From positions 1 through 57,253 of the IMG/VR virus record IMGVR_UViG_3300021223_000017: a stretch of DNA of 57,253 nt; one strand, written 5' to 3'. This stretch comes from a virus. Below, one piece after another: positions 38,942 to 56,117 of this stretch. The stretch's first letter is position 1. Each line of letters opens with the position of its first letter. The position numbers were made by a program, and so were the translations under genes. The notes under the pieces are model-generated. The model was not told where the DNA came from, did no database searches, and saw only the letters and a list, made by a program, of their open reading frames with translations.

Positions 38942-39002
38942 ATAAGCCTGCTTATATCCTAAGTAGAAGGACACTTATTTGCAAGCCGATAAGGGAACTT
39001 AT
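38942..39002. promoter_or_regulatory. OR-like operator cluster with PR and PRM
   Basis: Three 14-bp operators follow ATAAG-N4-CTTAT: 38942-38955 (CCTG spacer), 38965-38978 (one mismatch, GACA spacer) and 38989-39002 (GGAA spacer), about 24 bp apart. PR for cro on the minus strand is TTGCAA (38979-38984) - 17 bp - TAGGAT (38961-38956). The central operator lies in its spacer. TATAAA at 39000-39005 may be the -10 of PRM for cI. Confidence 0.88.
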
Positions 39003-39014
39003 AAATTCCAGCGG

Positions 39015-39674
39015 ATGAGCACACTCGCCGAACGAATTAAATCCGCGCGGAATCACGCCAAACTGACGCAGAAGGCTCTCGCCTTAAAGGTCGGGGTTGA
39101 GCAGCCCGTGATATCGCAGCTGGAGACAGGAAAGAACCTTCAAAGCGCGCACCTGCCGAAGATCGCGCACGTGTGCGGCGTGAACGCTATTTGGCTGTCC
39201 GAGAACACAGGGCCAATGACTGGCGCGAGCGCTTCCGAGTCGAACGTCTCAATGGCCGCGCAGCCCACAAAATCATTCCGTTACCCGGTAATAAGCTGGG
39301 TTTCTGCCGGCTCGTGGGCGGAGGCTGTAGAGCCCTACCCGGCCGGTATTTCCGATACCTATGAGTTTTCGGAGTACGACTCCAAAGGCCCAGCTTTCTG
39401 GCTCACGGTTAAAGGCGACTCGATGACTGCGCCCGCCGGCCAGAGCATCACCGAGGGCACGCTGATCCTGGTCGACACCGAAGCCGAGGTAGCACCAGGC
39501 AAGTTGGTTGTTGCCAAGCTGCCAGACAGCAACGAGGCGACATTCAAGAAGCTTGTGAGCGACGGCGGCCGGCTGTTCCTGAAGCCGCTGAACCCTGGCT
39601 ACCCGATTGAGCCGGTCGACGATAACTGCCGGATCGTGGGCGTGGTGGTCCAGGCGCTGCAGAAGTTTTACTGA
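39015..39674 (+). CDS. cI: CI-like repressor with S24 autoproteolysis domain
   Basis: A 219-aa repressor. The N-terminal HTH (residues 5-60, TQKALALKVGVEQPVISQLE) and a LexA-type C-terminal peptidase are present, with Ser136 in GDSM, Lys178 in EATFKKL, and an Ala98-Gly99 cleavage pair in SWVSAG. SOS-activated RecA would trigger self-cleavage and induction. No good Shine-Dalgarno precedes the ATG at 39015, so the PRM transcript may be nearly leaderless. Confidence 0.95.
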   Translation: MSTLAERIKSARNHAKLTQKALALKVGVEQPVISQLETGKNLQSAHLPKIAHVCGVNAIWLSENTGPMTGASASESNVSMAAQPTKSFRYPVISWVSAGSWAEAVEPYPAGISDTYEFSEYDSKGPAFWLTVKGDSMTAPAGQSITEGTLILVDTEAEVAPGKLVVAKLPDSNEATFKKLVSDGGRLFLKPLNPGYPIEPVDDNCRIVGVVVQALQKFY

Positions 39675-42360: not shown

Positions 42361-42386
42361 AGCCCGCCGCTGAGCGGGCTTTTTTG
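42361..42386 (+). terminator. Intrinsic terminator, copy 3 of the AGCCCGC type
   Basis: AGCCCGC-CGCTGA-GCGGGCT followed by six T residues. It separates the DUF2188-like gene region from the DUF1654-like gene. Confidence 0.8.
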
Positions 42387-42474
42387 TGCCCAAAATAAAG
42401 ACCTACCACCACACTTTATGCATTTGTGCATGTTTATTCCAAAACTTGCTTGCCAGAGTTCGCCAGCATCAATA

Positions 42475-42490
42475 CTGTACATGCATCCAG
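42475..42490 (+). promoter_or_regulatory. LexA-like box upstream of the DUF1654-like gene
   Basis: CTGTACATGCATCCAG matches CTG-N10-CAG with a near-palindromic core. It lies 20 bases before the start codon, where LexA would block transcription. Confidence 0.55.
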
Positions 42491-42509
42491 TACAGGCAAG
42501 GAACATCAC

Positions 42510-42761
42510 ATGACCCTCCCCGCTTTCACTACCTCGCAACCATCCTCCTCCTATGAAGCGGCAGGCCGGCGCTTGCAAGCTTTAATTGCCGCGCCAGGAG
42601 TCCAGAAGGTCCAGGCAGTGACCGTGTCTCGCCTAGCCCATGAAAGGCCAGAGGACTGGAGGCGGCTGCTCCATGAAATCGGCGAAACGGCCGGGGTCAG
42701 GGTGGAAGTTCTGGAAGGTGGCACCGTCAGGATCGGTTGGCGAGAATTCTGCGACGCATAA
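42510..42761 (+). CDS. DUF1654-like protein
   Basis: An 83-aa protein with the DUF1654 pattern typical of Pseudomonas: YEAAGRRLQALIAAPGVQ...TVSRLAHERPEDWRRLLHEI...EVLEGGTVRIGW. AAGGA is seven to eight bases before the ATG. A LexA-like box suggests SOS control. Function unknown. Confidence 0.75.
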   Translation: MTLPAFTTSQPSSSYEAAGRRLQALIAAPGVQKVQAVTVSRLAHERPEDWRRLLHEIGETAGVRVEVLEGGTVRIGWREFCDA

Positions 42762-42764
42762 ATG

Positions 42765-42789
42765 AGCCCGCCACTGAGCGGGCTTTTTA
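42765..42789 (+). terminator. Intrinsic terminator, copy 4 of the AGCCCGC type
   Basis: AGCCCGC-CACTGA-GCGGGCT followed by TTTTT. It isolates the PL promoter, which starts 30 bases further on. Confidence 0.85.
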
Positions 42790-42807
42790 TCGACTGCATG
42801 AAAAAAT

Positions 42808-42849
42808 ATAAGCGTGCTTATTGACGATAAAAATAAGTTGGCTTATATT
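42808..42849 (+). promoter_or_regulatory. PL-like promoter with two CI/Cro operators (OL)
   Basis: TTGACG (42821-42826), a 17-bp spacer and TATATT (42844-42849) form a strong promoter. Perfect operators ATAAGCGTGCTTAT (42808-42821) and ATAAGTTGGCTTAT (42833-42846) overlap the -35 and the -10. They have the same consensus as the operators beside cI. Confidence 0.92.
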
Positions 42850-42882
42850 TCAATTCAAGCCAGCAACAAACACCGCCGGCCA

Positions 42883-42910
42883 GCAGCGAAAGCTGCGTCG
42901 CTCTTTAACA
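42883..42910 (+). promoter_or_regulatory. nut-like antitermination site: boxB-like hairpin and boxA
   Basis: A GCAGC-GAAA-GCTGC hairpin with a GNRA loop (42883-42896) is followed by CGCTCTTTAACA (42899-42910), identical in form to bacterial rrn boxA. It starts about 27 bases after the predicted PL start point. The order boxB-boxA is that of rRNA leaders. The 42911-43167 leader beyond it has no confidently coding frame; arginine-rich frames are discussed in the findings. Confidence 0.78.
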
Positions 42911-43167
42911 GTCTGACGTGACCACCGCGACGTACCCAGGCCACTACCTGGGTCGGAAGAAGCTAAATCGCCGCCCAAGCAGCCTCTGGATAGCTGCCGT
43001 ACTCCCACATGTGAATACGCGAAACCACGCAAGCCAGCCAGGAAGAACACCGTCCACGAAATGTGTGACCTGGCCAAAGAGAGGACTCAGGCGCCGCGCG
43101 TGGTGGAGAGAACAAATTTTCCTCGATGGCCTTGGAAACAGGGCCATCCGGGAAAAGGAGAAAGACC

Positions 43168-43659
43168 ATGAATGAAGCAATGGTTAAGAGATTTTTCGAG
43201 TTTGTTAAGTATGACCCTGCGATGGGGGAATTCACTTGGGTCAAGTCACCCAACGCAAATTCACCGAAGGGCTCAGTAGCTGGATCAGCGGACACCGCCG
43301 GGTACCGACGGATAAGCCTACTCGGCAAACAGGTATCAGCTCACAGGCTTGCCGTTCTATGGATGACCGGCTCCATGCCTGATAACGAACTCGACCACAT
43401 CAACGGCATCCGATCAGACAATCGATGGGCGAACCTACGGGTTTGTGATCAATCGCAGAATCGGCAAAACGTGAACCTACGATCGGACAACAAGGTAGGC
43501 GTCAAGGGTATTCGCATTACCAAGAATGGTCGCTTTGAGGCTCAGGTTATCGCCAATAAGGCTCGCAAAAGCGCGACCTTCATGACGCTTTCAGAGGCGG
43601 CCGAATGGGTGAGGTCGACGCGAATAGCGATGCACGGAGAGTTTGCAAAGCACGCATAA
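43168..43659 (+). CDS. HNH endonuclease with AP2-like domain
   Basis: A 163-aa protein. The HNH block is HRLAVLWMTGSMPDNELDHINGIRSDNRWANLRVCDQSQN (one core after another), followed by a C-terminal AP2-type DNA-binding segment (VGVKGIRITKNGRFEAQV). Such proteins are mobile, homing-type nucleases. AAGGAG lies eight bases before the ATG at 43168. It is the first clear gene of the PL operon. Confidence 0.88.
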   Translation: MNEAMVKRFFEFVKYDPAMGEFTWVKSPNANSPKGSVAGSADTAGYRRISLLGKQVSAHRLAVLWMTGSMPDNELDHINGIRSDNRWANLRVCDQSQNRQNVNLRSDNKVGVKGIRITKNGRFEAQVIANKARKSATFMTLSEAAEWVRSTRIAMHGEFAKHA

Positions 43660-43667
43660 CAGCATGA

Positions 43668-43728
43668 CGGACATTTTCACTTCTGCATCTGGTGACGGGT
43701 GCAGCGGGAAAACAACCGGAGAGCAGTG
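43668..43728 (+). repeat. 61-nt conserved leader element, copy A
   Basis: CGGACATTTTCAC, a hairpin (TGCATCTGG...GGGTGCA), then GGGAAAACAACCGGAG and the start codon of the 97-aa gene. Copies B and C are at 44024-44083 and 45061-45121. Confidence 0.8.
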
Positions 43729-44022
43729 ATGACCAAAAAGGTAGGGAGGAAAACGACGGTGACGGCGGTAGCAATTCGGATGCATCCAAAACTAAGACAT
43801 CTTCTGGATGTGGTGGGTCGTAAGCAGCGCCGCTCGATGACTGCTGTTATTGAGGCCGCCATCGAAGCATTCGCAAGCTCTGCAGAGCGTGATATCGCGG
43901 AGTCGACTTGGTCCACCGATGAAAACGAGCGCGCCTTGAACCTCTATTTAAAAGCGCCTGACCTTTGCTCATTCGATGAGGAAGTCGATGCCAAGGCAAT
44001 CCTGGCTGCGCGCAGTCAGTAA
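43729..44022 (+). CDS. Ribbon-helix-helix-like protein (97 aa)
   Basis: The start at 43729 has GGAGA upstream. The N-terminal half (TVTAVAIRMHPKLRHLLDVVGRKQRRSMTAVIEAAIEAF) fits a ribbon-helix-helix DNA-binding fold. The second half is acidic. Probably a small regulator. Confidence 0.7.
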   Translation: MTKKVGRKTTVTAVAIRMHPKLRHLLDVVGRKQRRSMTAVIEAAIEAFASSAERDIAESTWSTDENERALNLYLKAPDLCSFDEEVDAKAILAARSQ

Positions 44023-44023
44023 T

Positions 44024-44083
44024 CGGACCTTTTCACGTCAGCGCTTGTATCGGGCGCTTTCGGAAACCACCCGGAGTAAGGCG
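44024..44083 (+). repeat. 61-nt conserved leader element, copy B
   Basis: CGGACCTTTTCAC, a hairpin (AGCGC...GCGCT), GGAAACCACCCGGAG, then the 57-aa start codon 60 bases after the motif. Confidence 0.8.
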
Positions 44084-44257
44084 ATGAACGAAGCCCAGAA
44101 AAAAGAGATTCAGGACATTGTTCAGGAGATCGCGACTGACGAAAGCATCAGTTTTGACGAGGCTTTCGCAATCGCCGTGGGGATGTTGAAGCTTCATGGT
44201 GGCGGCATGCCTAAAGGAAGAAAGGCCGCTGGCAGTGGAACAGGTCAGGCCTCGTAA
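44084..44257 (+). CDS. Small hypothetical protein (57 aa)
   Basis: The ATG at 44084 has GGAG upstream. An acidic helix (EIQDIVQEIATDESISFDEAF) and a glycine-rich basic tail (GGMPKGRKAAGSG). Its end overlaps the convergent DUF2622-like gene by 13 bases. Confidence 0.65.
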   Translation: MNEAQKKEIQDIVQEIATDESISFDEAFAIAVGMLKLHGGGMPKGRKAAGSGTGQAS

Positions 44258-44535
44258 AGAAACGCCGACCATTCGTGTTCATGGACACGACAGAGAAAAA
44301 TAGAGGCTGAGCCTCGCGAAGTAAGCGGATCAGAAATAGATTTAACTCTATCTCTTAATTCAGAGGTACCCAGAGTACTAGTACCAAAGTACGTCCCTAT
44401 CGGCATGCCGTACGTTTTACCGTCATCAAATAAAACGGTCCTTTTCAGGCCGAGCGCATCCATCTTTTCGTGAAGATCGGAGTAATCCTCTCCGCTAGCC
44501 CTAAACAGCTCAACTCGCACCATGTATTCCGCCAT
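44245..44535 (-). CDS. DUF2622/GhoS-like protein
   Basis: A 96-aa protein (MAEYMVRVELFRASGEDYSDLHEKMDALGLKRT) with the DUF2622 pattern. The GhoS antitoxin, an endoribonuclease that destroys ghoT mRNA, is the best-known relative. AGGAG precedes the ATG. It is on the minus strand against the PL operon, with no ghoT-like toxin visible. Confidence 0.72.
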   Translation of the reverse strand: MAEYMVRVELFRASGEDYSDLHEKMDALGLKRTVLFDDGKTYGMPIGTYFGTSTLGTSELRDRVKSISDPLTSRGSASIFLCRVHEHEWSAFLYEA

Positions 44536-44670
44536 TGCTGCACTCCTTGCTTCGACTGTGGAGGTCGAAGCATATGGCTTTCCCTCGACTGTGGAAAGCG
44601 AGGAAACAGGGAGCCTGCCCCTGTCAAAACAGGCGCCTTAACTGACCAATGCCACCTGGGAGTCACGACG

Positions 44671-45054
44671 ATGGAAGCAACAATCATCAACGGCGCATGG
44701 AAGGGTCACCTCGGACGTGGCCTTGCACCGCGAGAGCTTCAGTTTCTGCTTTGGATTGCCCAGGGCTTCACCTCGAAAGAGATCGCTCGGGAAGCAGGCA
44801 TTGAGTACGGCAGCGTCAAGAAGCGCCTGACCAATGCGATGTTCAAGCTTGGCGTGACGAAGCGCACTGCTTTGGTGGCTGAGGCCATGAAGCGCCAGAT
44901 CATCACGCCGGTCTGCTTTGTGCTGGCGGCGCTGATCGCCATTCACTCGATGATCAGTGACGACTCATTGCGTCGTGATCGCCGGGCGCCGGAAAGGCGA
45001 ATGGCTCAGGTGCGAATGGTGCGCCGGACGGAATGTCCTGAGCTGATGGGTTGA
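44671..45054 (+). CDS. LuxR-type HTH protein with membrane anchor
   Basis: A 127-aa protein. The LuxR/GerE helix-turn-helix (residues 18-72, LAPRELQFLLWIAQGFTSKEIAREAGI) is followed by a hydrophobic segment (79-96). The upstream stretch 44536-44670 contains hairpins with a repeated CGACTGTGGA loop. Possibly a membrane-tethered regulator. Confidence 0.8.
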   Translation: MEATIINGAWKGHLGRGLAPRELQFLLWIAQGFTSKEIAREAGIEYGSVKKRLTNAMFKLGVTKRTALVAEAMKRQIITPVCFVLAALIAIHSMISDDSLRRDRRAPERRMAQVRMVRRTECPELMG

Positions 45055-45060
45055 GCGGTA

Positions 45061-45121
45061 CGGACCTTTTCACTGATGCACCTGGTTACCCAGTGCATTG
45101 AGAAAAAAACGGGAGACAGGT
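45061..45121 (+). repeat. 61-nt conserved leader element, copy C
   Basis: CGGACCTTTTCAC, a hairpin (TGCACCTGG...CCAGTGCA), GAAAAAAACGGGAG and the start codon 61 bases after the motif. Confidence 0.82.
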
Positions 45122-45316
45122 ATGGGGAACAACGATCTGAAGGACGCAGAGCAGACTCTGCAGCGCCTCGCCGCAGCCCTGAACAAAGCGGTCCGGGAAT
45201 ATTCGAACCACGGAATGACTGTAGAGATGGATGTCGTCAGCAGCTCAATAATCGGGGGTGTTTCGGTGTCGTCGGTTTCGCTGAACTGCAGCATCGCCAT
45301 TCGAAACCTCGACTGA
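45122..45316 (+). CDS. Small hypothetical protein (64 aa)
   Basis: The start at 45122 has GGGAG upstream. An N-terminal helix (DAEQTLQRLAAALNKAVREYS) and a valine-rich C-terminus. Not recognised. Confidence 0.65.
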   Translation: MGNNDLKDAEQTLQRLAAALNKAVREYSNHGMTVEMDVVSSSIIGGVSVSSVSLNCSIAIRNLD

Positions 45317-45383
45317 ACAACCAGCGCCACGACAGCCTGTCGTTAACTGCCCGATGCCCTGGTACTCCCCAGCACCAGGTCGT

Positions 45384-45469
45384 ATCGGAGTGTGATCTGA
45401 AACACAGGCCGAAAGGTTCCCCCGGACAGCCGGCATGCCGGAGTAAGTCAGGGCAGATCACACCCCGAT
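45384..45469 (+). ncRNA. Candidate structured RNA in an ORF-free stretch (45317-45770)
   Basis: A 15-bp stem with one mismatch (ATCGG-A-GTGTGATCT at 45384-45398 with AGATCACAC-C-CCGAT at 45455-45469) encloses a perfect palindrome CCGGCATGCCGG (45430-45441). Further stems follow: CAACTGC/GCAGTTG (45508-45535) and GCGCAG/CTGCGC (45591-45614). No convincing gene lies in 45317-45770; one GGAGG at 45547 leads into a start-Lys-stop frame at 45562. Strand is taken from the operon. Confidence 0.5.
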
Positions 45470-45770
45470 GCGGACGAAATCGCGGCCTATAACCGCCCAC
45501 CTGCACTCAACTGCCAGAGCACACCGCCGCAGTTGAAACCCCACACGGAGGATTGTCAGCCATGAAGTAATTCAGAGATTCACCTGCGTGGCGCAGTAAG
45601 CCTGAAGGCTGCGCCCAACATCCTGACAGGCAGCGGAAAGCAGGGCCGACGATGTGACCGCGCATCATCCGAAAGGTAGGCCCACCCAAAACGAAGATGA
45701 ACACCGCAGGCGAGTCCGAGGGCATAGCTGGCCAGACTCGACACATCCCGGGAAGTGCCGGGCGCCTGCG

Positions 45771-45998
45771 TCATCGCGGAATCGCCCGACCGGTGACAAT
45801 GCTCTTGCTTCCGCAGTTGCAAATAGGAACATGGGATTCGGATCGCCGACGCAGGTGTTCATAGTCGCTTGCTGCAACAGTATCGAAGCCGCTCCACCGA
45901 TTTTCGGTGTTGCCCAGTTCGTCTGAGCGAACGACCTTAATACCTACATGCCCGCAGGACCTGCAGGTTGCTTTGTAGTGATTTTCATCCCAGCTCAT
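45771..45998 (-). CDS. Zinc-ribbon-like small protein (75 aa)
   Basis: The ATG at 45998 has AAGGAG upstream on the minus strand. The protein (MSWDENHYKATCRSCGHVGI ... HVPICNCGSKSIVTG) has two CxxC pairs of zinc-ribbon type. It lies against the PL operon and needs its own promoter. Function unknown. Confidence 0.7.
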   Translation of the reverse strand: MSWDENHYKATCRSCGHVGIKVVRSDELGNTENRWSGFDTVAASDYEHLRRRSESHVPICNCGSKSIVTGRAIPR

Positions 45999-46151
45999 TT
46001 GCCACTCCTTGACGTCCATAAGTCTGTCAAATATAGCAGCGATATCCCACCTCCCCGCCTTTATCCACCAGCACTCACCCCGCGGCCATCGGCAACCAGC
46101 GGAGGGCATGAGTGTTGACGAATACAGGTGAACCAACGAAAGGAGACGACC

Positions 46152-46418
46152 ATGAACCAAAGTCACCACGCTTACTGTGATGTAGCGATCGCAATGAACC
46201 AGCGCCGCAATATGTCCTTGGCGCTTTGCCTTGGGCTGGTCGGCTCCAACGCCCCGAAGACCTCGCCTCGGCACCGGGTCATTCCGGTGAGTGATCAGTT
46301 CTTCCACATCGTCGACGGCCAGACGGGCAAGGTTGTTGGGTTCCGCCGCGATCACAACGAAGCTTGCGCCTTCGCCCGGCGCCTGGAGACCTGCCATGCC
46401 GACCAGTTACGCGGATAG
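46152..46418 (+). CDS. Hypothetical protein (88 aa)
   Basis: AAAGGAG precedes the ATG at 46152. A small basic protein (MNQSHHAYCDVAIAMNQRRNMSLAL ... FHIVDGQTGKVVGFRRDHNEACAFARRLE). Not recognised. Overlaps the next gene by 23 bases. Confidence 0.65.
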   Translation: MNQSHHAYCDVAIAMNQRRNMSLALCLGLVGSNAPKTSPRHRVIPVSDQFFHIVDGQTGKVVGFRRDHNEACAFARRLETCHADQLRG

Positions 46419-46626
46419 TGCCCAGGCCCGGGAATCCGACAGGCGCTGGGACTTCCCGGAACAAACGCCAAGCAGTCGAGCGGTCCTGTTCCATGAATAT
46501 ACCGAGGACGACCTTGCAGAACGTGATGCCCAGCGTCTCGCAGAACGTGCAAGCCTCAAGCGCCGGATTGGGTTGGCAATGACCCAGATGGAAGCCATCT
46601 GCCCGCCGATTGGGAGTGATGCATGA
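46396..46626 (+). CDS. Hypothetical protein (76 aa)
   Basis: The start at 46396 (MPTSYADSAQAR) has CTGGAGA upstream. Acidic and helical (EDDLAERDAQRLAERASLKRR). Overlaps the next gene by four bases. Confidence 0.65.
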   Translation: MPTSYADSAQARESDRRWDFPEQTPSSRAVLFHEYTEDDLAERDAQRLAERASLKRRIGLAMTQMEAICPPIGSDA

Positions 46627-46850
46627 ACACCGCCCAGCGCGACCACCAGACCGCAGTCGGCTGGATCGAGGCAGAGATCGAAAACATGATCCGCGACCTC
46701 GGCAAGCCCAACGCAAGTGCGGCAGCGACATCCTGCGTCACCCTGGCCTTCATGCTACGGGCTATTGATGAGGCCGAGCAGCGCCGCTACCGGGCGCGCA
46801 TCGACCAGATCTACGCCGAATACAACGCGTCACTCGTTTCTGCCGCTTAA
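46623..46850 (+). CDS. Hypothetical protein (75 aa)
   Basis: GGGAG lies upstream of the ATG in an overlap with the previous stop. A helical protein (NTAQRDHQTAVGWIEAEIENMI). Not recognised; a probable recombination-module accessory by position. Confidence 0.65.
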   Translation: MNTAQRDHQTAVGWIEAEIENMIRDLGKPNASAAATSCVTLAFMLRAIDEAEQRRYRARIDQIYAEYNASLVSAA

Positions 46851-46907
46851 CCGCACCACCTCACTACAACACTTTCAATGCTGCGCCAGGCGCGGCGAGG
46901 GATCGTC

Positions 46908-48068
46908 ATGTCCACAAATGCTAAAAAAGCACCCGCACAAGAATCGCTCGAAATCAGCGAAGCCGAAAATGCGCAGAAAGCAGTATCTCCTGCGGTAGCG
47001 TTCACTGACATCGCTGAGTACCGGCCGCACGAAGAACAAATCGTTCGCCTGGAAACGACTTACGCGAAGCTGGTCGTTGATTGCTCGACGACCGAAGGCT
47101 ACGAGAGTGCCAAGGAAGTACGCGTCGATATCCGTGCCGTGCGTTATGCCCTGGCGAATACCACCAAGACTGCGTTGGCGCCCTACCAGCAGGCGGTTAA
47201 AGATGCTCAGGCCCGCGTCAATCAGGTGAAAGAGTTCGGCGAGACACTGAAGACTCGCGTCCTCGTACTTGAAGAGCCAATCGACGAGGCGATCAAGGCT
47301 GAAGATAAACGCATTGCCGAGGCCAAGGCCGAACGCGAACGCATCGAGCGTGAGCGCATCGAGGTCATCCGCGCAAAAATTACCCGCTTCAGTTCTGTCG
47401 CTGCCGCATATGCAAGTCGGAGCGCGACTGACGTCTCCAGCATTCTGCAAGGCGTCAAGGAATCGGTGATCCTCCCCGAAGAATATGGCGAGTTTGAAGC
47501 CGAAGGCACCATCGCTCGTGATAACGCAATTGAGCAGTTGGAAGCGCTGCACAAGGCTGCCATTGATCGAGAGGAAGCTGCTGCGAAGCTGCTGGCTCAG
47601 CAGAAAGAGCTTGAAGAGCTGCGCGAGAAGCAACGCGTCGCTGACGCTGAAGCCGAGGAACTGCGCAAGCAACGCGCCGAGGAAGATCGTAAGCGCTTAA
47701 AGCAGCAGCAGGACGAACTGGATAAGCAGCGCCGCGATATGGAAACGCAACAACGCCAACAGCGTGAGCAGCAGGAAGAGCAACAGCGCCAGCAGCGCGA
47801 ACGTGACGCCCAGTATCAGCGCGACCAGGAAGAACTGGCCCGTCTTCGCGCCCAGGCTATTGCCCCGGCACCAGTAACTGCTGCAGCTGCGCCTGTGATC
47901 GTAGAGAAGGTTGAAGTCACGCCGATCAGTTCGCATGCGATCGGTGATAACACCGACGACGCCACTACAGGCGCGCCACTCGTTGACGACATCGTCGAGG
48001 TCGTGGCGCTGGGCTTCGACGTGAGCCTCGACACCGCTCGCGCCTGGCTACGCGCCATCCGCTTCTAA
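46908..48068 (+). CDS. Coiled-coil protein upstream of recT (DUF1351-like)
   Basis: A 386-aa protein. The N-terminal 170 residues (QIVRLETTYAKLVVDCSTTEGYESAKEVRVDIRAVRYAL) resemble proteins always found with phage recT/YqaJ. A long glutamine/glutamate/arginine-rich coiled coil follows (about 215-320), then a C-terminal helical domain. GAGGGA lies before the ATG at 46908. Probably assists recombination. Confidence 0.78.
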   Translation: MSTNAKKAPAQESLEISEAENAQKAVSPAVAFTDIAEYRPHEEQIVRLETTYAKLVVDCSTTEGYESAKEVRVDIRAVRYALANTTKTALAPYQQAVKDAQARVNQVKEFGETLKTRVLVLEEPIDEAIKAEDKRIAEAKAERERIERERIEVIRAKITRFSSVAAAYASRSATDVSSILQGVKESVILPEEYGEFEAEGTIARDNAIEQLEALHKAAIDREEAAAKLLAQQKELEELREKQRVADAEAEELRKQRAEEDRKRLKQQQDELDKQRRDMETQQRQQREQQEEQQRQQRERDAQYQRDQEELARLRAQAIAPAPVTAAAAPVIVEKVEVTPISSHAIGDNTDDATTGAPLVDDIVEVVALGFDVSLDTARAWLRAIRF

Positions 48069-48121
48069 CCACCCTTTCCACCCGAAAGCCGACACGTCCC
48101 TTGTCGGCCAGGGAGAGCGCT

Positions 48122-49087
48122 ATGACCGATACAGACACACAAGCACAAACAGGCCTCGCCACGTACCACGATCCATCGCACAACGCCGCAGCGCTCATCC
48201 TTGATCCGGGCACGATGAGGTCAATGACTGATCTTGCGACGATGATGGCTGACGGGAAAACGACCGTTCCTGAACATCTGCGGGGCAACAAAGCCGATTG
48301 CATGGCAATCGTCTTGCAGGCGATGCAATGGCAGATGAACCCATTCGCGGTGGCTCAGAAAACCTTCATCGTAAAAGACGGCGCACTGAGTTACGAAGCT
48401 CAACTGGTCAACGCTGTAATCACATCCAAGGCCCCCACCATCGACCGCCTGCACTATGAATGGTTTGGGCCCTGGGAAAAGATTGTCGGCAAGTTCCTGG
48501 TTAAGAAAAATGCAGATAACAAGGAATACCGCGTTCCCGGTTGGGGGCTGCTGGACGAAGTAGGCTTGGGCGTCAAAGTATGGGCGACTTTCCGTGGAGA
48601 GAATGAGCCGCGAGTGCTTGAGACACTCATGGCGCAGGCTCGCACTCGTAACTCCACTCTGTGGGCCGACGATCCGAAGCAGCAGATCGCTTACCTCGCC
48701 ACCAAGAAGTGGGCTCGCTTGTTCTGCCCTGACGTGATTCTGGGTGTTTACACACCTGACGAGTTCGAAAGCGTCCACGGCAACGAGATTGATATTACTC
48801 CCTCTGAACAAGCAGCTAACACGGCCGCTGCAGCTGGTGTTTCGTTTGGCCCCAAATCCCCGTCACCGGAAATCGACGGTGTATTCGCAGACCTTCTTAT
48901 CGTCGCGAAGCGGCAAGACATCGAAGCCTATGCAGCGGCCTGGGCAGGTCTCAAGCCGAAGCAGCGCGCAGCAATCGGCCTGGAGTGCCACGAAGCCCTT
49001 AAAGCCATGGCGGCGACCGTCGATGCCGACTTTACCGATATGACGGGATCCAACGGCGACCAGTCCCAGACAGAGGAGGCGGCATAG
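48122..49087 (+). CDS. recT: RecT-family single-strand annealing protein
   Basis: A 321-aa annealing protein. Motifs: CMAIVLQAMQWQMNPFAVAQKTF, LSYEAQLVNAVI, and TRNSTLWADDPKQQIAYLATKKWARLF. A hairpin (GCCGAC...GTCGGC) and GGGAGA precede the start. It works with the downstream exonuclease in phage recombination. Confidence 0.93.
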   Translation: MTDTDTQAQTGLATYHDPSHNAAALILDPGTMRSMTDLATMMADGKTTVPEHLRGNKADCMAIVLQAMQWQMNPFAVAQKTFIVKDGALSYEAQLVNAVITSKAPTIDRLHYEWFGPWEKIVGKFLVKKNADNKEYRVPGWGLLDEVGLGVKVWATFRGENEPRVLETLMAQARTRNSTLWADDPKQQIAYLATKKWARLFCPDVILGVYTPDEFESVHGNEIDITPSEQAANTAAAAGVSFGPKSPSPEIDGVFADLLIVAKRQDIEAYAAAWAGLKPKQRAAIGLECHEALKAMAATVDADFTDMTGSNGDQSQTEEAA

Positions 49088-49749
49088 TGAGAACGGAACT
49101 TCAGGGCACCGAAAAATGGCGTCAGGACCGGTCTGGCCGCTTAACAGCTAGCCGCTTTAAAGATGTGGTGGCCTGGGGGAAGCCTGACAAAAATGGGAAG
49201 CGCGAGCCTATGGGTGCGCGCACCTCATACATGCGCGAACTGTGCTTCGAGCGACTCGCAAAGAAGTCCAAGCACAACGTCAGCAGCGCCTCTATGAAGT
49301 GGGGCCACACCGAAGAGCAGAAGGCGCAGGACGCCTACGAGATATTGACCGGCAACATCGTCCTACCGTCGGAGTTCATCGTTCATCCAAAGTACGACTG
49401 GCTCGGCTGTTCACCAGATGGCCTGATCAACGAAGACGGGGGCACCGAATCGAAGTGCCCCTTCAACGAAGCGATACACGTCAGGACCTGGTTGGAAGGC
49501 ATGCCCGAAGAGCATATGCCACAGGTCCAGGGCTGCATGTTCGTTACTGGCCGAAAATGGTGGGACTTCCTGTCGTTTGATTCTCGCCAAGATGAAGAGT
49601 GTCAGCTCTATATCGAAACGATTTACCGCGACGAAGACTACATCGCCAACCTGCACAAAGAGCTGGTCCAGTTCAACCTGGAACTGAACCGCATGGTTGA
49701 TGAGGTAGCGGACAAAGCTCGGGCGCAAGCCCATCGCCTAGGAGCCTGA
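49087..49749 (+). CDS. YqaJ-type recombination exonuclease
   Basis: A 220-aa lambda-exonuclease-fold enzyme. Catalytic residues are Asp111 (CSPDGLI), Glu121 and Lys123 (GTESKCP), with the earlier WGHTEEQKA acid. It starts at GTG, overlapping the recT stop, with GGAGG upstream. It resects double-strand ends for RecT. Confidence 0.93.
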   Translation: MRTELQGTEKWRQDRSGRLTASRFKDVVAWGKPDKNGKREPMGARTSYMRELCFERLAKKSKHNVSSASMKWGHTEEQKAQDAYEILTGNIVLPSEFIVHPKYDWLGCSPDGLINEDGGTESKCPFNEAIHVRTWLEGMPEEHMPQVQGCMFVTGRKWWDFLSFDSRQDEECQLYIETIYRDEDYIANLHKELVQFNLELNRMVDEVADKARAQAHRLGA

Positions 49750-49751
49750 CC

Positions 49752-49994
49752 ATGATCAGCAACCTAAAATCAGACATCGAGTTCCGGCGCGAGAAAGCGC
49801 TGGAGCTTTCCAGTCAGGTCAGTCGGCACTTGGACGCCGGTGGCAAATACACCATCGGCGAGAGCCCGGCGATCAATCCAGACCCGGCAAAGCGTTCGGA
49901 ATTCATCGACCCGACAACCATCCTCAAGCGCCGCAAGCAGCCCATCACCCGGGCCGAGCGTGAGGCGCTGCGCAAACTCGCGGAGGCCATATGA
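49752..49994 (+). CDS. Small hypothetical protein (80 aa)
   Basis: AGGAG precedes the ATG. Charged and helical (DIEFRREKALELSSQVSRHL ... ILKRRKQPITRAEREALRKL). Coupled to its neighbour by four bases. Confidence 0.65.
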   Translation: MISNLKSDIEFRREKALELSSQVSRHLDAGGKYTIGESPAINPDPAKRSEFIDPTTILKRRKQPITRAEREALRKLAEAI

Positions 49995-50461
49995 GCAAGC
50001 GCAAGCCTCACAACTTCAAAGCCCGCATTGACCGATCCTGCCGGTCGCTGCTGGCTACCAATCACGTCGCAGTAGTCAACATCGACCCCAGCGGCCGCCA
50101 GGGCATGATCAACTACAAATCGCTCAAGAACATTGCGCCGGGAAAGATTGGCCAGGCTGTCTGCGGAATTCCCCACCGGTGGACGATCTACCTCGGCGCC
50201 CTTTGCATCGACGCCCACGGCGACCGCTACAGCAAGTCGATTGAGGTCGCGCCCGATGGCGTCTACCTCTCCGACCACCTGGAAGACGTGATCGAGCATT
50301 GCTACAAGAAGCTGCGTGACGAGGCAAACCAAAGCCAGATGGTGGCTTCGGGCTGGATCGCCATTCCTGAAGCGATATCGCTGGACGAGGCGCATGCAGC
50401 GCGGATCTTCAAAGCAGTCGGCGCCTGGCACCAGGTGAAGGTCGATTCATGCGCCGCATAG
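49991..50461 (+). CDS. Hypothetical protein (156 aa)
   Basis: A 156-aa basic protein (MSKRKPHNFKARIDRSCRSLLATNHVAVVNIDPSGRQGM). It is common in form among early genes of such prophages but the function is not recognised. Confidence 0.7.
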   Translation: MSKRKPHNFKARIDRSCRSLLATNHVAVVNIDPSGRQGMINYKSLKNIAPGKIGQAVCGIPHRWTIYLGALCIDAHGDRYSKSIEVAPDGVYLSDHLEDVIEHCYKKLRDEANQSQMVASGWIAIPEAISLDEAHAARIFKAVGAWHQVKVDSCAA

Positions 50462-50530
50462 CCCGCATCCAGCAACGCAAACGACAAACCTGGCTCGCAC
50501 TGCCGGCCAGCGGAATAGAAGAGGTAGGCC

Positions 50531-50860
50531 ATGGCCAAGACTGTGCAGGAACGATCGGCCAAAACTGCCAGGAAGCGCGTGGCACTTGCCGAAGAGGAGT
50601 TGAGGCTCAGGGTTCGCCCCGGCACCCGACAGGCGCTGGCCGAATTGATGGAGTGGTCAGGCATTACTGAGCAGGGCGAGGCGATGACGCTGATGATTCA
50701 TCACCTACACGCGATGGGTTCAGCGAAATGCCAGCCGCTGCTGAATCCACAGCGCCACGAAATCGAGATATCGGAAAACGTGGCGCGGGAATTCAGAAAC
50801 AAAAGCCTTCTCGCCATCCAGAAAGACCCGGGCGACGAGATTATCGACCCATCTATTTAA
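50531..50860 (+). CDS. Hypothetical RHH-like protein (109 aa)
   Basis: AGAGG precedes the ATG at 50531. A basic N-terminus is followed by LRLRVRPGTRQALAELMEWSGI...MTLMIHHLHAMG, resembling ribbon-helix-helix regulators. Overlaps the convergent lipoprotein gene by eight bases. Confidence 0.65.
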   Translation: MAKTVQERSAKTARKRVALAEEELRLRVRPGTRQALAELMEWSGITEQGEAMTLMIHHLHAMGSAKCQPLLNPQRHEIEISENVAREFRNKSLLAIQKDPGDEIIDPSI

Positions 50861-51287
50861 CTGATGTCGAAGGCGTTTCGTTGGCAACAGGATCCGCAAC
50901 ATCTGCCGGCTGCCCAGTCTCCACGTCACGAACCTCATATCTCCACCATGACAGCGAAGATATCCCATAGAGACCATAAGTACGGCCGCCCACGAGATCA
51001 ATAGTCATTTCGATCGGAGCAGTTTGTTGTTCCGCGGTAATGAATTTACGAACTTGAATCTTATGCCTGCCTGCACCCAGTCGGTATTCGCTTTGGCGGC
51101 TCAACCAATAAAGGGTTTGATCGTCGTCAATCTTAAATATTGTCAAAGATTTATCGAACTGCTGAATCGTAGCGATTTCGGAGTTTGATTTTCCTTCTGC
51201 ACTTTTGTGTTCGTAATGAATGCACCCAGTCAGCGTGAAGCTGAACAAAATCATTGCTATAAAGCGCCAAACAATCTCGTGTCGCAT
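50853..51287 (-). CDS. Lipoprotein (144 aa), moron
   Basis: Signal peptide and lipobox LTGC (MRHEIVWRFIAMILFSFTLTGC). The mature part is AT-rich in coding and beta-like (TLYWLSRQSEYRLGAGRHKIQVRKF). It is on the minus strand, downstream of a small two-span membrane gene. Probably expressed in the lysogen; an envelope role is inference. Confidence 0.78.
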   Translation of the reverse strand: MRHEIVWRFIAMILFSFTLTGCIHYEHKSAEGKSNSEIATIQQFDKSLTIFKIDDDQTLYWLSRQSEYRLGAGRHKIQVRKFITAEQQTAPIEMTIDLVGGRTYGLYGISSLSWWRYEVRDVETGQPADVADPVANETPSTSVK

Positions 51288-51415
51288 CAGTGCTCCTTAT
51301 AGGCTCAAATCCAAGGTGTGGATCGATACCTTATCCTTTTCCAAAATCCCATCCCACTCGCAGAATCCGGTAACGGACGGGCACAGCTGGGTGAAATTGC
51401 CACTTTGAGATGTAG

Positions 51416-51592
51416 CTAGGCCTTTACTACGCTCTTGATAATCCAGACACCAACCAGAACAAATGCTGCTGATTTAGCCACGGCAAACAGAGAATCTCTT
51501 CCAGCAAATAACTCGAATGCCGAAAATAGTAGTGAGATCGTTCCTACTACCACCAAACCATAGCCAACCGGTCGCACGTACTTGGGGAACAT
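51416..51592 (-). CDS. 58-aa two-span membrane protein
   Basis: GGAG seven bases before the ATG at 51592. MFPKYVRPVGYGLVVVGTIS starts a first hydrophobic span, and a second (about 41-53, SAAFVLVGVWIIK) follows a short charged loop (GRDS). It is in the same direction as the lipoprotein 128 bases downstream; the gap between them holds no gene. Confidence 0.65.
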   Translation of the reverse strand: MFPKYVRPVGYGLVVVGTISLLFSAFELFAGRDSLFAVAKSAAFVLVGVWIIKSVVKA

Positions 51593-51705
51593 CTATTCAT
51601 CTCCATGATAAAACAGAAATTGTAAATTTCCCCGCCCAGTAACGCCATCAATCATTCCGCCTCCATCCGATATCACGGAGGGCGGCGCTTGACTGGAGAT
51701 AATCC

Positions 51706-52128
51706 ATGAGCAACATTCCTCCGCGCCCGAAGGCTGATAAAGCAATGATCCTCGCGGCCTGCACCGTTGTGGCTGAGAAGATCAATGGAGACGCCGACAC
51801 CATCGCCCAGCACTACCGCCGCCACATGGACGGTTTTGAGCTGGCAAAGGAGCTTGATAAGTATGCGTCCTGGGACACCACGCGGGATGACATGGAAGCG
51901 CTGGACGAGGTCGACTATCTCGTAGATAGGGCCGAAGACCTGGCGGTAAAAGCGTGGGCTGAAGAGTTCAAGCCCGAGCCACCGCTGCCTATTGGCACCA
52001 GGGTCAAACAAGGCGTGATCACGCGGATCTACGAGCACACCCCGGCCATGTACTGCGTCAAAGAAGACGGCTGCACCAACGACACCCGCAGCCTGCTCAT
52101 AAAATTCGAAGACGCCGTAGCTGCCTGA
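51706..52128 (+). CDS. Hypothetical protein (140 aa)
   Basis: A hairpin with CCGCC/GGCGG arms and GGAG precede the ATG. The N-terminal helical domain (AMILAACTVVAEKINGDADTIAQHYRRHMDGFELAKEL) is followed by a small beta domain (TRVKQGVITRIYEHTPAMYCV). Not recognised. Confidence 0.7.
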   Translation: MSNIPPRPKADKAMILAACTVVAEKINGDADTIAQHYRRHMDGFELAKELDKYASWDTTRDDMEALDEVDYLVDRAEDLAVKAWAEEFKPEPPLPIGTRVKQGVITRIYEHTPAMYCVKEDGCTNDTRSLLIKFEDAVAA

Positions 52129-52196
52129 TCCGGCTCCATGCCGGTCACCCGTAATACCCCATATCAACGAATCACGCCAGCCGGCGAGGATCCCCT

Positions 52197-53147
52197 ATGC
52201 CTACTCACAACATCGTCAGCATGAGTGGCGGTAAAGACAGCACGGCTACGCTGCTGGTCGCCCGCGAGCTGGAGGTGCCGAACCTCAGCGCTGTAGTGGC
52301 TGACACCGGGCATGAGCATCCAGAGACGTACGACTACATTCACTACCTGGCTGAAGCCACTGGTGTTCCTATCCGGTGGGTGAAGGCAGATTTCTCCAGG
52401 CAGATCGCTGGCAAGCGCAAATTCATCGAAACGAAATGGCGCGAAAAGGGTGTGGCGGAATCCGTGGTGCTGGGCGCTCTGGAAGTACTGCACCCAACCG
52501 GCAACCCGTTCCTGGACTTGTGCCTTTGGAAAGGTCGATTCCCTAGCACCAAAGCCCGCTTCTGCACCGACGAGCTCAAGCGCAATCCAATCATCGAGCA
52601 GGTTTACCTGCCGCTCATGGACGGCGAGAACATGCTGCTGTCCTGGCAAGGCGTTCGGGCTGATGAGTCGCCGGCCCGCAAGTACCTACCAGAGTGCGAT
52701 GAGGTTGGCGGCGGCCTGTTCAACTATCGGCCCATCTTGAAGTGGACGGTTGATTCGGTCTTCGAGGCTCACCGGGCCGCCGGCATCAAGCCGAACCCGC
52801 TGTACTTGCAAGGCTGTAATCGAGTTGGCTGTATGCCCTGCATCATGTGTGCGAAAGACGAGCTTCGGCAGATCGCGGCCAGGTGGCCAGAGGAAGTTGA
52901 CCGGGTGCGCGAGTGGGAGCGACTGGTGAGCATCGCCAGCAAGCGCGGCGCGGCAACGTTCTTCGCCACCGTCACCGATCCCACTGTCCGGTCAGATGAC
53001 AAGGTGAGCGCCGTCACACACGGCATTGACCGAATAGTCAACTGGAGCAACACCGCACGCGGGGGCCGACAGTTCGACATGGTCGACCTGATCGCTCGCA
53101 CCGACAGCCAGAACAGCTGCTCTTCCGCCTATGGACTCTGTGAGTAA
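52197..53147 (+). CDS. PAPS-reductase-like PP-loop ATPase
   Basis: A 316-aa protein of the phosphoadenosine phosphosulphate reductase superfamily. The pyrophosphate-binding SGGKDST (10-16) is at the N-terminus, DTGHEHPETYDYIH follows, and a CNRVGCMPCIMCAKDE cysteine cluster lies near residue 210-225. Phage members are known but the substrate is not; nucleic-acid thiolation or sulphur metabolism are options. GAGGA precedes the ATG. Confidence 0.88.
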   Translation: MPTHNIVSMSGGKDSTATLLVARELEVPNLSAVVADTGHEHPETYDYIHYLAEATGVPIRWVKADFSRQIAGKRKFIETKWREKGVAESVVLGALEVLHPTGNPFLDLCLWKGRFPSTKARFCTDELKRNPIIEQVYLPLMDGENMLLSWQGVRADESPARKYLPECDEVGGGLFNYRPILKWTVDSVFEAHRAAGIKPNPLYLQGCNRVGCMPCIMCAKDELRQIAARWPEEVDRVREWERLVSIASKRGAATFFATVTDPTVRSDDKVSAVTHGIDRIVNWSNTARGGRQFDMVDLIARTDSQNSCSSAYGLCE

Positions 53148-53155
53148 TAACAAAA

Positions 53156-53521
53156 CTAATTCAGCATATCGTCCAGTAGGGAGTCTAGGTTAGAGGCTTT
53201 GTCCCGAGCTACATCAAATAACTGCTTCAGCATAGGAGAGTATTCAGAGTAGTCGCTTACCAAACTGTCACCGATGATAATCCCAAAGTGGATAGACGTA
53301 GTCCAGCTGAACTCATCAACATCCGTCCAGTACTTCTCCCTAAGCTCAAACAAGCATACTGCGCTCCCTTTATATCTAGCTTCGAGATACAGCGGAATGA
53401 AATTATCAGTGGCCAACGTTAAGGCTCGAGGAGCACTGTCGATACGCCAGCTAACTTCGCCGTTATTTGTGGAGCGAAGTAACTTTTCAACAAGCATTGA
53501 CAATTTGTAATCAGTATTCAT
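53156..53521 (-). CDS. Second gene of a coupled minus-strand cassette (121 aa)
   Basis: The start at 53521 forms an ATGA with the upstream stop and has GGAG six bases before. A soluble acidic protein (MNTDYKLSMLVEKLL ... FIPLYLEARYKGSAVCLFELREKYWTDVDEF). No family is recognised. Clearly AT-rich relative to flanking genes. Confidence 0.65.
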   Translation of the reverse strand: MNTDYKLSMLVEKLLRSTNNGEVSWRIDSAPRALTLATDNFIPLYLEARYKGSAVCLFELREKYWTDVDEFSWTTSIHFGIIIGDSLVSDYSEYSPMLKQLFDVARDKASNLDSLLDDMLN

Positions 53522-53997
53522 CGATTTCTCCAAGCTGAATCTTTATGACCGCCATCAACTTGAACGATCATTCCATCAAGGGACCTTGCAATCTCCCAGG
53601 CTTCGTTAAGGGAAATAGCTGAAATATCACGAGCAAAAAACAAAAACCTTTTATGCTCAATTTTCCCCAGTACAACTTTTAGGGACTTCTTTTCTTCAGC
53701 TGCAAGTTTTCCTTTCAAGATAATCAGACGCCCACGCACCCTAGACAACGCGTTATGGGTTGTCTTACCAGTACCTCCAGGCTTCTCCCACTCTCCAAGA
53801 GCCTTGATTAGCGCCTGCGAGTCGCTTGAAAGTTCTGGAAGAATTTCACCTACCCTGACACGGTTAAAAAAGAAATCGCTAATTCTTCTTGCCTGCCATC
53901 CAATCCAGCAAGTTAGAGCAAATCCAAGCCATGTGATGATATCGGCAGAGCTGCTTAAAGTTAGCCAAGAAGGCCAAGTCCATTCAATCGATGTCAA
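53518..53997 (-). CDS. Membrane-anchored first gene of the cassette (159 aa)
   Basis: It starts at TTG with a GGAGGG site about nine bases upstream; no nearby ATG is available. One membrane span (about 19-36, ITWLGFALTCWIGW) is followed by a basic stop-transfer region and a cytoplasmic helical domain (RGRLIILKGKLAAEEKKSLK). It is coupled to the 121-aa gene. The direction against the early operon suggests lysogenic expression. Function unknown. Confidence 0.65.
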   Translation of the reverse strand: MTSIEWTWPSWLTLSSSADIITWLGFALTCWIGWQARRISDFFFNRVRVGEILPELSSDSQALIKALGEWEKPGGTGKTTHNALSRVRGRLIILKGKLAAEEKKSLKVVLGKIEHKRFLFFARDISAISLNEAWEIARSLDGMIVQVDGGHKDSAWRNR

Positions 53998-54038
53998 TCC
54001 GTTAGCCCTCCGTTCCTACATTATCTGCAGAAATTATT

Positions 54039-54383
54039 ATGCCTGCCATCACTCCCTTAAGGTATCCCCATGCCCACAGAAAAAAACGGCTGACCCCCTT
54101 CGGCCCGAACGGCCGCACCTTTCACATCCATCTGAGCGTTCGCGGCGCAATCCGCGATTTCAGCAAGCGCCAGCTCAAAGGTATGTTCCGCGTTGATGGC
54201 AGGGAATGCACCGCTGACGAGGCGAAGGATCATCTGCTCGAAGCGCTGGCCCAGGGCAAAGAGGTGCTTCCCTTCGGTCCGCCGTGCGAAGGCTTCGACT
54301 TCTCAGGCGGCGGCTGCCCAGGTCATGACAAGCCGGCGCCGGTTATGAATGTCCATGATTTGGTAACGAGGGAGGCTGTATGA
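54039..54383 (+). CDS. Hypothetical protein with possible -1 frameshift start
   Basis: The open frame encodes KKRLTPFGPNGRTFHIHLSV...FSKRQLKGMFRVDGREC, and its C-terminus has GGGCPGH. The frame's own ATG (54039) has no ribosome site. ATG at 54070 has AAGG eight bases upstream but lies in the +1 frame and reaches TGA after seven codons. Between them is A-AAA-AAC (54081-54087), a canonical -1 slip site that would join the two. Either frameshifting or an adenine loss explains this. Confidence 0.6.
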   Translation: MPAITPLRYPHAHRKKRLTPFGPNGRTFHIHLSVRGAIRDFSKRQLKGMFRVDGRECTADEAKDHLLEALAQGKEVLPFGPPCEGFDFSGGGCPGHDKPAPVMNVHDLVTREAV

Positions 54384-54961
54384 GCCAAGTTAAACGGTGG
54401 TACATCGGCGTGTATGGCGGCGAGGCGCAAGCGAGAGGCTGCGCACCCAATGTCCGGGAAATGATTCGAGACTCCGAGAAAGAAATATTTGTTTTGGATG
54501 CTGACTTCAAACGCGTCGAAGCCGAGCGCGACGCCCTGCAACAGCGCCTGACCGCAGCGGATGAGCGGTGGGACGAACTGGTCAGTGCGGTACGGTCAAT
54601 CAACCGCAGCCCGCACTACATGGTCAAAGCGATTGACGATGACCAACCGCAGTACAGGCAGCGCAAGGAATGGATTGATTGGGTGCTTGGGCTTTGTGAT
54701 GCAGCGCCTAAGTCCAGTGAGCGATCCAACAGGGACTACGCCATCGAGCACGCCGAATACATGGCCAAGTCAGCCGATGAGGTTATGGCGAAATTCCAGG
54801 CATATGGCGTGGCTCTGCTGGCCGTTGATGAGGGCGGTGACGATGGCGAATGTGAGCTTTTGGAGAATATTGACTCTGCCCGCAGTGAACTGCAGGAGTC
54901 ACTGGTAGATCTGCGCGGCATGGTTTACGAATTTCGCAAGCGTAGCGCTAAATCCCAATAG
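54380..54961 (+). CDS. Hypothetical coiled-coil protein (193 aa)
   Basis: ATGA overlap with the previous gene. Helical (EKEIFVLDADFKRVEAERDALQQRL), then a conserved middle (RSINRSPHYMVKAIDDD) and a C-terminal acidic coil. Ead-like by style; not recognised. Confidence 0.7.
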   Translation: MSQVKRWYIGVYGGEAQARGCAPNVREMIRDSEKEIFVLDADFKRVEAERDALQQRLTAADERWDELVSAVRSINRSPHYMVKAIDDDQPQYRQRKEWIDWVLGLCDAAPKSSERSNRDYAIEHAEYMAKSADEVMAKFQAYGVALLAVDEGGDDGECELLENIDSARSELQESLVDLRGMVYEFRKRSAKSQ

Positions 54962-55098
54962 GAGTACATCCGTACTCCACCCGCAAAGACGCCAACCCCT
55001 CCTCGAAAATCCTAACTTTCGGCGTCACCAATCAAAATTCGTTAACCAACTCAATCCCCCCTACATGCCTGTCGGCGAGCGGCGGGCGAGGAGTTCCT

Positions 55099-55623
55099 AT
55101 GTCTCATGCACTCGACAACAGGCCGCTCTCGGTGCGCCTGCAAGCAAGAATCGAAAAGTACGCCGGGGCCACAGTCGACCCTCTCGTTACCGACCTGGCG
55201 CTCCACACCCAGTCGCTGGCGGAGATCACGAGGCTGTCGGCAGAAGTGGCGGTGCTCAGCAAGAACGTTATCGATTTCACCCGAGAAGACTTCGATGCGA
55301 CCCTGAACAATCTTCGCAGGATGGGCGCCAGCATCGACGGTGACAACGCCTACAAGCGCGACCTGTGCGATGCGATTGCAGGGGCCCTGGCCATGGGTGC
55401 CCAGAATACGAACCCGCCGCCGGCGGATCACTGGGGTCAGCGCTTCTGGGATATCGGCCGCGAGGAACGTGCTGGGTGCGAAGAGTTGGTCGCAGCCCTG
55501 AGTCTCGCCGTAGACCGCTGGACCCTATTGGCAAACGAGTTCAAACACACGACCCCCGAGCATGATCGAGAGCTCGCCGAGATATCGAAAGCCAAGAACG
55601 CAATCGCCAAGGCCACCCGCTAA
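55099..55623 (+). CDS. Hypothetical protein (174 aa)
   Basis: AGGAG is five bases upstream. Helical throughout (LQARIEKYAGATVDPLVTDLAL ... FDATLNNLRRMGASIDGDNAYKRDLCDAI). The interval before it (54962-55098) holds only a hairpin. Not recognised. Confidence 0.7.
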   Translation: MSHALDNRPLSVRLQARIEKYAGATVDPLVTDLALHTQSLAEITRLSAEVAVLSKNVIDFTREDFDATLNNLRRMGASIDGDNAYKRDLCDAIAGALAMGAQNTNPPPADHWGQRFWDIGREERAGCEELVAALSLAVDRWTLLANEFKHTTPEHDRELAEISKAKNAIAKATR

Positions 55624-55659
55624 CCCACCTTCTGCCGCCCAGCGCGGCCAGGACACCAC

Positions 55660-55881
55660 ATGTTCGCAATGAAACTTACCCTAATTGTACTGGGCGTCTT
55701 GCTGTACCTGATCGGCACTGCCGTTGGGTTCATCGTGGGCCTACCTGCCCTTCTCAGCTCCGGCGATATACCAGACATCATTGGCGCCTTCGCTGGCTTC
55801 GTCGCCTGGGTGCTCATCACCTTCGGTTTCATCATCCACATCATCAAGACAGCGCGGCCCACAGCGGACGCCGGGAGGTAG
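55660..55881 (+). CDS. Small membrane protein (73 aa)
   Basis: Two hydrophobic spans (about 4-28 and 42-64) with a short acidic loop (SSGDIPDI). AGGA precedes the ATG. Its position before xis suggests an early membrane function. Not recognised. Confidence 0.68.
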   Translation: MFAMKLTLIVLGVLLYLIGTAVGFIVGLPALLSSGDIPDIIGAFAGFVAWVLITFGFIIHIIKTARPTADAGR

Positions 55882-55883
55882 CG

Positions 55884-56117
55884 ATGGCACGGCTTATTGC
55901 GCAGATCACGGTAAAGCTGCCGCGCCTCATGGAGGCCGGTGAATACAGGAAGTTGCGGTATGTGGGTGGAAAGCCGAGCCTGCAGCAACTGAAGAAATGG
56001 ATTGAGGAAGGCGAAGTGATCGGAGAGGTAAAAGGCGGGATGTATTTCGTCGATGTGCAGGCAGCGATCATGGGTTCGAGTGACCCGCTGCTCGCGAAGA
56101 TGCTGGAGATAGGCTGA
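55884..56117 (+). CDS. Excisionase (Xis-like)
   Basis: A 77-aa protein with a winged-helix-like LQQLKKWIEEGEVIGEVKGGMYFVDV, usual for recombination directionality factors. It ends one base into the integrase start (ATGATGG region). It directs excision on induction. Confidence 0.82.
   Translation: MARLIAQITVKLPRLMEAGEYRKLRYVGGKPSLQQLKKWIEEGEVIGEVKGGMYFVDVQAAIMGSSDPLLAKMLEIG

Follow-up and report, generated by a model that had tools for sequence, protein, structure and literature searches.

Early antitermination in temperate phages is known chiefly through N proteins and nut sites and, rarely, through put RNA. In phage HK022, putL lies just 3′ of the leftward early promoter (PL) and requires no dedicated protein; put RNAs are about 70 nt long, form two stem-loops and occur at both PL and the rightward promoter (PR) (PMC9378689). 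Nus-dependent early antitermination also occurs outside the classical lambdoid phages, in the non-lambdoid coliphages mEp021 and mEpimmI, whose N-like protein is Gp17 and whose three nut sites carry a boxB with an A-rich loop (PMC11893012). In bacteria, a Nus-SuhB complex at BoxA has been proposed to keep Rho from terminating ribosomal RNA (rRNA) transcription (PMC4807359, PMC5725501), and BoxA sequences of the consensus GYTCTTTAANA are found in the leaders of cellular mRNAs such as suhB, which it represses (PMC5725501). Here we describe a hairpin followed by a boxA of the rRNA operon (rrn) type near the start of the PL transcript in IMG/VR record IMGVR_UViG_3300021223_000017, a viral DNA of 57,253 nucleotides analysed over its full length (the window), whose host, judged from its relatives, is probably Pseudomonas. 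The element may allow transcription of a long early operon with host Nus factors and with no N protein.

The window has a lambdoid layout, with a CI-type repressor gene co-directional with PL and a Cro-like gene on the opposite strand. PL, with a 17-nt spacer between its two hexamers (42821-42849), is the sole promoter-like site found by scanning the positive strand from 42800 to 57253, and relatives share an equivalent promoter-operator layout with different operator sequences (Table 1). Transcription probably starts near position 42856, placing the hairpin about 27 nt into the transcript, in agreement with the initial annotation of this sequence. The hairpin and boxA were confirmed in the window exactly as that annotation had read them, separated by the spacer GT (42897-42898). 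The boxA core, GCTCTTTAACA, has one exact occurrence in the whole window on both strands; shuffled windows hold a mean of 0.61 core sites when one mismatch is permitted, so the motif by itself is merely moderately improbable.

Eight leaders in Pseudomonas genomes, taken as rrn leaders by their promoter, sequence and recurrence at contig ends and not by 16S genes, read ...GGTTGAGACGAAAGATCTTAACCAAC CGCTCTTTAACA ACTGAA..., and the window boxA is identical to theirs at 12 of 12 positions. A hairpin lies directly 5′ of boxA in the window and in these leaders alike, with close spacing in both and with a long untranslated structured RNA after boxA. Both the order of the elements and the boxA sequence are therefore those of an rRNA leader, as had been claimed. 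The phage site differs from the Pseudomonas rrn leader in having a phage promoter with repressor operators, in driving an mRNA operon and in the sequence of its hairpin, which in the host is GGTTGAGA..TCTTAACC; boxC was not identified in the phage leader, no search aimed at it having been made. In Aeromonas lacus, an rrn-like promoter is followed by GCAGCAAAAGCTGCGTCGCTCTTTAACA (L219, L254 and L334), 27 of 28 nt identical to window positions 42883-42910. This likeness is left as suggestive only, because contigs end there and the pattern was not found in 25 other Aeromonas genomes.

To avoid circularity, leaders of related phages were gathered by downstream anchors that exclude boxA. Among the matches listed, 107 distinct leaders collected by one such anchor (T1) carry GCTCTTTAACA exactly in 86 cases and with one mismatch in 19, compared with no exact core and a single one-mismatch core in 535 shuffled controls, and the distance from boxA to the anchor is 28-30 nt in 88 of the 107. 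Loci found in whole genomes through the downstream RNA models described below have an exact boxA in 21 of 30 leaders of type A and 16 of 30 of type B; when the rest were inspected, boxA or a variant resembling it stood where expected in every one except the type A locus L295, with GCTCTTTAAAA, GCTCTTTACACA and GCTCTTTTACAA among these variants. The P. aeruginosa phages LESphi3 (L264), Riah (L268), phi2 (L269) and D14P (L270) carry a further variant, CGCTCTTTCACA, at the equivalent site. A scan for the hairpin-boxA pattern returned at least 80 viral loci, most with a constant boxA, many operator types 5′ of it and several leader types 3′ of it; a scan anchored on the operators gave 6 loci only. 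A large family of Pseudomonas phages keeps boxA at this single place, and the comparison of nut regions in relatives that the initial annotation had suggested speaks for it: boxA is retained at PL across many regulatory contexts, one per phage.

Of 25 phage contigs, 22 have a single match to the consensus GYTCTTTAANA, two have two matches and one has none, giving no sign of a regular nutR-like second site, and no boxA consensus was found on the PR side of the window. Like the nut sites of lambda and P22, the element belongs to a phage with lambdoid organisation and stands near the beginning of its PL transcript. The lambda and P22 boxA core is similar to that of the window. The element differs from those nut sites in that the hairpin is upstream of boxA, its loop is unconserved, there is one site instead of two, and no N has been recognised; nor was a hairpin common to the leader types found just 3′ of boxA, unlike in lambda-type boxA-boxB. 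In the same scan, a different phage group is represented by at least five contigs (L033, L040, L015, L016 and L066) with two opposed boxA sites, each followed after approximately 12-18 nt by a hairpin of similar type, for example CCGCCGAAATGCGG; these predicted nut pairs are the lambda arrangement.

A stem of 4 bp or more, ending 2-8 nt 5′ of boxA, is present in 65% of 46 distinct upstream sequences, compared with 26% in dinucleotide shuffles (the largest value of 60 being 43%), and two control positions showed no stem excess. The form GCAGCGA is present in just 10 of the 46, and both hairpin sequence and loop vary widely. Most relatives from the hairpin-boxA scan, among the matches listed, have GCAGC..GCCGC, creating one A.C mismatch in the stem. 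The upstream hairpin is conserved as a structure and not as a sequence, a lack of boxB sequence conservation that the initial annotation had overlooked; the enriched stem upholds its claim of a hairpin, whereas the exact GCAGC-GAAA-GCNGC is merely one of many. A kept structure with a variable sequence fits the boxB of rrn operons better than an N-specific boxB loop, and this variability led to the rejection of a conserved boxB sequence as the target of N.

Downstream of boxA lies either of two structured RNAs that are unrelated to each other: type A, the commonest, and type B, the one in the window. Both show base-pair covariation. The initial annotation had overlooked this conserved structured RNA of more than 130 nt, which is a source of a serious alternative or additional mechanism. 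In the type B alignment (A1, 28 sequences), 31 proposed pairs have 87.9% paired cells and a covariation score of 0.254, compared with 0.134 in shuffles and at most 0.081 with slid partners; in the type A alignment (A2, 16 sequences), 36 pairs have 87.4% paired cells and a score of 0.249, compared with 0.133 and at most 0.093, the slide control being biased toward a structure drawn from the same data. For type B, the number of pairs changed on both sides is not above shuffles and the count of such cells is, these per-pair counts being provisional, since the structures come from visual inspection of the very sequences scored and the alignments were made on sequence. Upstream of the type B core, locus L211 was found on inspection to keep both helices of the 5′ domain with other bases (ACGACG/CGTCGT and ACCGG/CCGGT).

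Models built for type B (R1, 136 positions) and type A (R2, 150 positions), with 6-7 helices, each find their own leader type and not the other, and a single RNA common to both types was rejected for this reason. Of 299 Pseudomonas genomes sampled, 43 match R2 and 39 match R1, corresponding to 13-14% each. In a class-level sample of 321 genomes, R2 matched its seed genome only and R1, run without a positive control, matched nothing. Rfam gave no gathering-level match in the window, and at a relaxed threshold none above gathering for the window or the type A and B loci; the two leader RNAs appear to be new objects, absent from Rfam and seemingly undescribed. The leader types are swapped among phages whose operators and first genes differ. 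These leaders are unlikely to be coding, as no frame is open in all aligned type B leaders; a leader open reading frame at 42918-43175 had no PHROG match and was rejected. Further leader types follow boxA in L013, L026 and L224 (T5) and in L005, L020 and L217, with no convincing match to R1 or R2, and these are possibly additional structured RNAs. In L013, the first gene after the T5-type leader is short, starts MLILTRRVGETIRINDDI and looks CsrA/RsmA-like from its sequence.

The operon downstream of PL is approximately 14 kb long and encodes an HNH endonuclease, a LuxR-type regulator, a RecT-like protein and an exonuclease, with an integrase (by sequence) at its end; its untranslated leader extends roughly 310 nt to the first gene, which lies about 260 nt from boxA and differs between phages. 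Judged from sequence comparison, the leader and operon are probably transcribed in an rrn-type, Nus-dependent and Rho-resistant manner. Nascent boxA, with the hairpin just 5′ of it, would be bound by host NusB-NusE(S10) as polymerase leaves PL and, with NusA, NusG and SuhB, would form the same Rho-resistant elongation complex as on rRNA. The polymerase could then cross the structured leader and the operon, through the HNH, recT, exonuclease and integrase genes, without Rho-dependent termination, and the phage would not have to encode N, PL alone carrying the site. The simplest account is use of the host rrn complex: Rho would be expected to terminate within a long untranslated leader, and boxA-NusB-NusE-SuhB has been put forward as the protection of such RNA in rRNA operons (PMC4807359, PMC5725501). 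Intrinsic-terminator-like sites on the sense strand of the operon are few (one by scan; two in a separate count, with 3.5 expected), so that Rho resistance might suffice, the count being weak evidence. The initial annotation's "little need for N" is plausible, and its interpretation as a whole is partly supported by element order, boxA identity, conservation at PL, one site per phage, the lack of any N gene recognised in the operon genes tested and the absence of a shared N-like gene beside the leaders. Nus binding, Rho resistance and independence from a phage factor are the inferred parts of this account. The proposed Nus dependence has a parallel in mEp021 and mEpimmI, with the differences that those phages have Gp17 and three nut sites (PMC11893012) and that the phage described here has one site and no recognised N.

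Several points weigh against such a mechanism. The majority variant of the window's hairpin family has an A.C mismatch in its stem, and the downstream structured RNA is conserved beyond the needs of a model based on Nus factors alone. In favour of the mechanism, the operon genes tested gave no N-like PHROG or Pfam match, and no gene family recurs within 4.5-6 kb in more than half of 92 leaders, giving no shared N-like candidate there; against it, N proteins are small and fast-diverging, so an absent profile match is weak evidence. BoxA may also repress, as in suhB (PMC5725501). The leader RNAs, which boxA alone does not explain, could act on polymerase like HK022 put or regulate the first gene. 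A third route of early antitermination, without N, in which an rrn-type boxB-boxA complex and an exchangeable large leader RNA would jointly make polymerase processive over the operon, is a doubtful but conceivable extension.

The main rival to Nus-dependent antitermination is that the type A or B leader RNA binds RNA polymerase directly, as put does by way of the beta′ zinc-binding domain and with no protein factors, with boxA and Nus factors merely assisting. Two covarying RNA families at PL, exchanged among phages with different operators and first genes, and the directly adjacent hairpins H2 and H3 of the window argue for this, as does the position of HK022 putL, likewise a structured RNA in the leader immediately 3′ of PL, from a phage lacking a recognised N. 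By description, however, put is a pair of stem-loops at both PL and PR (PMC9378689), whereas here a larger RNA accompanies boxA at one site per phage, at PL only, and boxA is almost invariant in these leaders; we consider a put-like mechanism unlikely. A lambda-type nut site with an unrecognised N, whose true boxB is a downstream hairpin such as H2 with the loop CTCTGG, is in our judgement quite unlikely. The type B set shows no variation in this loop, a partly circular observation as the set was collected by that motif, and the same loop is found shortly 3′ of a boxA-like site in phi297; moreover, N proteins are easily missed by sequence comparison. Type A leaders, however, lack the CTCTGG hairpin, which was rejected as a universal boxB and stays a rival for type B, and the 25 contigs show no nutR-like second site, the 92 leaders no shared candidate gene, and the two-site contigs with boxA then hairpin in the other phage group look different.

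It is very unlikely that boxA and the leader are regulatory or attenuating, as in the suhB leader, with Nus binding or folding limiting or timing the first gene or directing RNase processing. The site shares with suhB and other cellular targets a BoxA in an mRNA leader and the consensus (PMC5725501), and there is a hairpin element ahead of the first ribosome-binding site; BoxA represses in suhB, however, whereas here it is near the phage transcript start and far from a first gene that differs between phages, and the long operon argues for read-through. A chance match or a decayed host rrn fragment, favoured by nothing except the shortness of boxA, is refuted by its conservation across anchors and operators and its recurrence at PL in leaders collected without requiring it.

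Table 1. Features of the PL region and early operon in the window.
Feature	Position	Strand	Basis
CI-type repressor; PL 3.1 kb downstream, co-directional as in lambda	38979-39674	+	PHROG 4, E 3.2e-55
Hairpin and T-run GAGCCCGCCACTGAGCGGGCTTTTTATC, would insulate PL from DUF1654 gene	42766-42790	+	sequence reading
PL promoter TTGACG (42821-42826) / TATATT (42844-42849), overlapping inverted-repeat operators AAGCGTGCTTATT, AATAAGTTGGCTTAT	42810-42849	+	sequence, scan
Possible 5′ hairpin near transcript start, GCCAGC..GCCGGC, one mismatch	42859-42880	+	sequence reading
boxB-like hairpin GCAGC-GAAA-GCTGC	42883-42896	+	sequence; enrichment of ≥4-bp stems in distinct upstreams
boxA CGCTCTTTAACA	42899-42910	+	identical to Pseudomonas rrn boxA; comparative conservation
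Leader RNA 5′ domain: outer stem 42927-42932 / 42969-42974, hairpin H1 CCCAGG-CCACTA-CCTGGG (42935-42952)	42927-42974	+	sequence
Type B leader RNA core, model R1	42972-43106	+	alignment A1, covariation count
Type B helices H2 (loop CTCTGGATA); H3	42979-42997; 42998-43019	+	alignment A1, model R1
Type B closing stem P1; P2 (about)	43024-43030 / 43098-43104; 43037-43042 / 43069-43074	+	model R1
Type B P3; P4	43055-43065; 43079-43088	+	model R1
Hairpin element preceding ribosome-binding site of first gene	43117-43156	+	sequence
Recurring TTTTC-hairpin-GGGAAAA element	43117-43156; 43673-43719; 44030-44076; 45067-45115	+	sequence
HNH endonuclease, first PL-operon gene with database match	43171-43659	+	PHROG 99, E 2.3e-54; Pfam HNH_3

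Other elements surround the site. An element consisting of TTTTC, a hairpin of approximately 6-7 bp, GGGAAAA and a ribosome-binding site recurs before gene starts in the window and precedes the first genes in many related leaders too; it may be a translation or processing element. At the position equivalent to window 42859-42880, other loci have different hairpins. A site resembling the hairpin and T-run upstream of PL was found by scan at 42361-42380, and an operator-like palindrome near PL, ACTGTACATGCATCCAGTACAG, lies at 42473-42496, upstream of the DUF1654 gene (42510-42761). The phi297 operon also has a gene whose annotation records similarity to a global regulator family protein.

A literature search, with subscription journals largely outside it, returned nothing on boxA or nut in Pseudomonas prophage leaders, and the use of rrn-type antitermination by phages, at the PL of Pseudomonas prophages, would be the novel aspect of this proposal. 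The conserved site suggests that these phages borrow host ribosomal machinery in place of an N protein. If true, this would explain how long early operons are run without N in a large group of Pseudomonas prophages, whose early transcription would depend on the Nus-SuhB machinery, and would provide a compact system in which to study the rrn complex outside rRNA.
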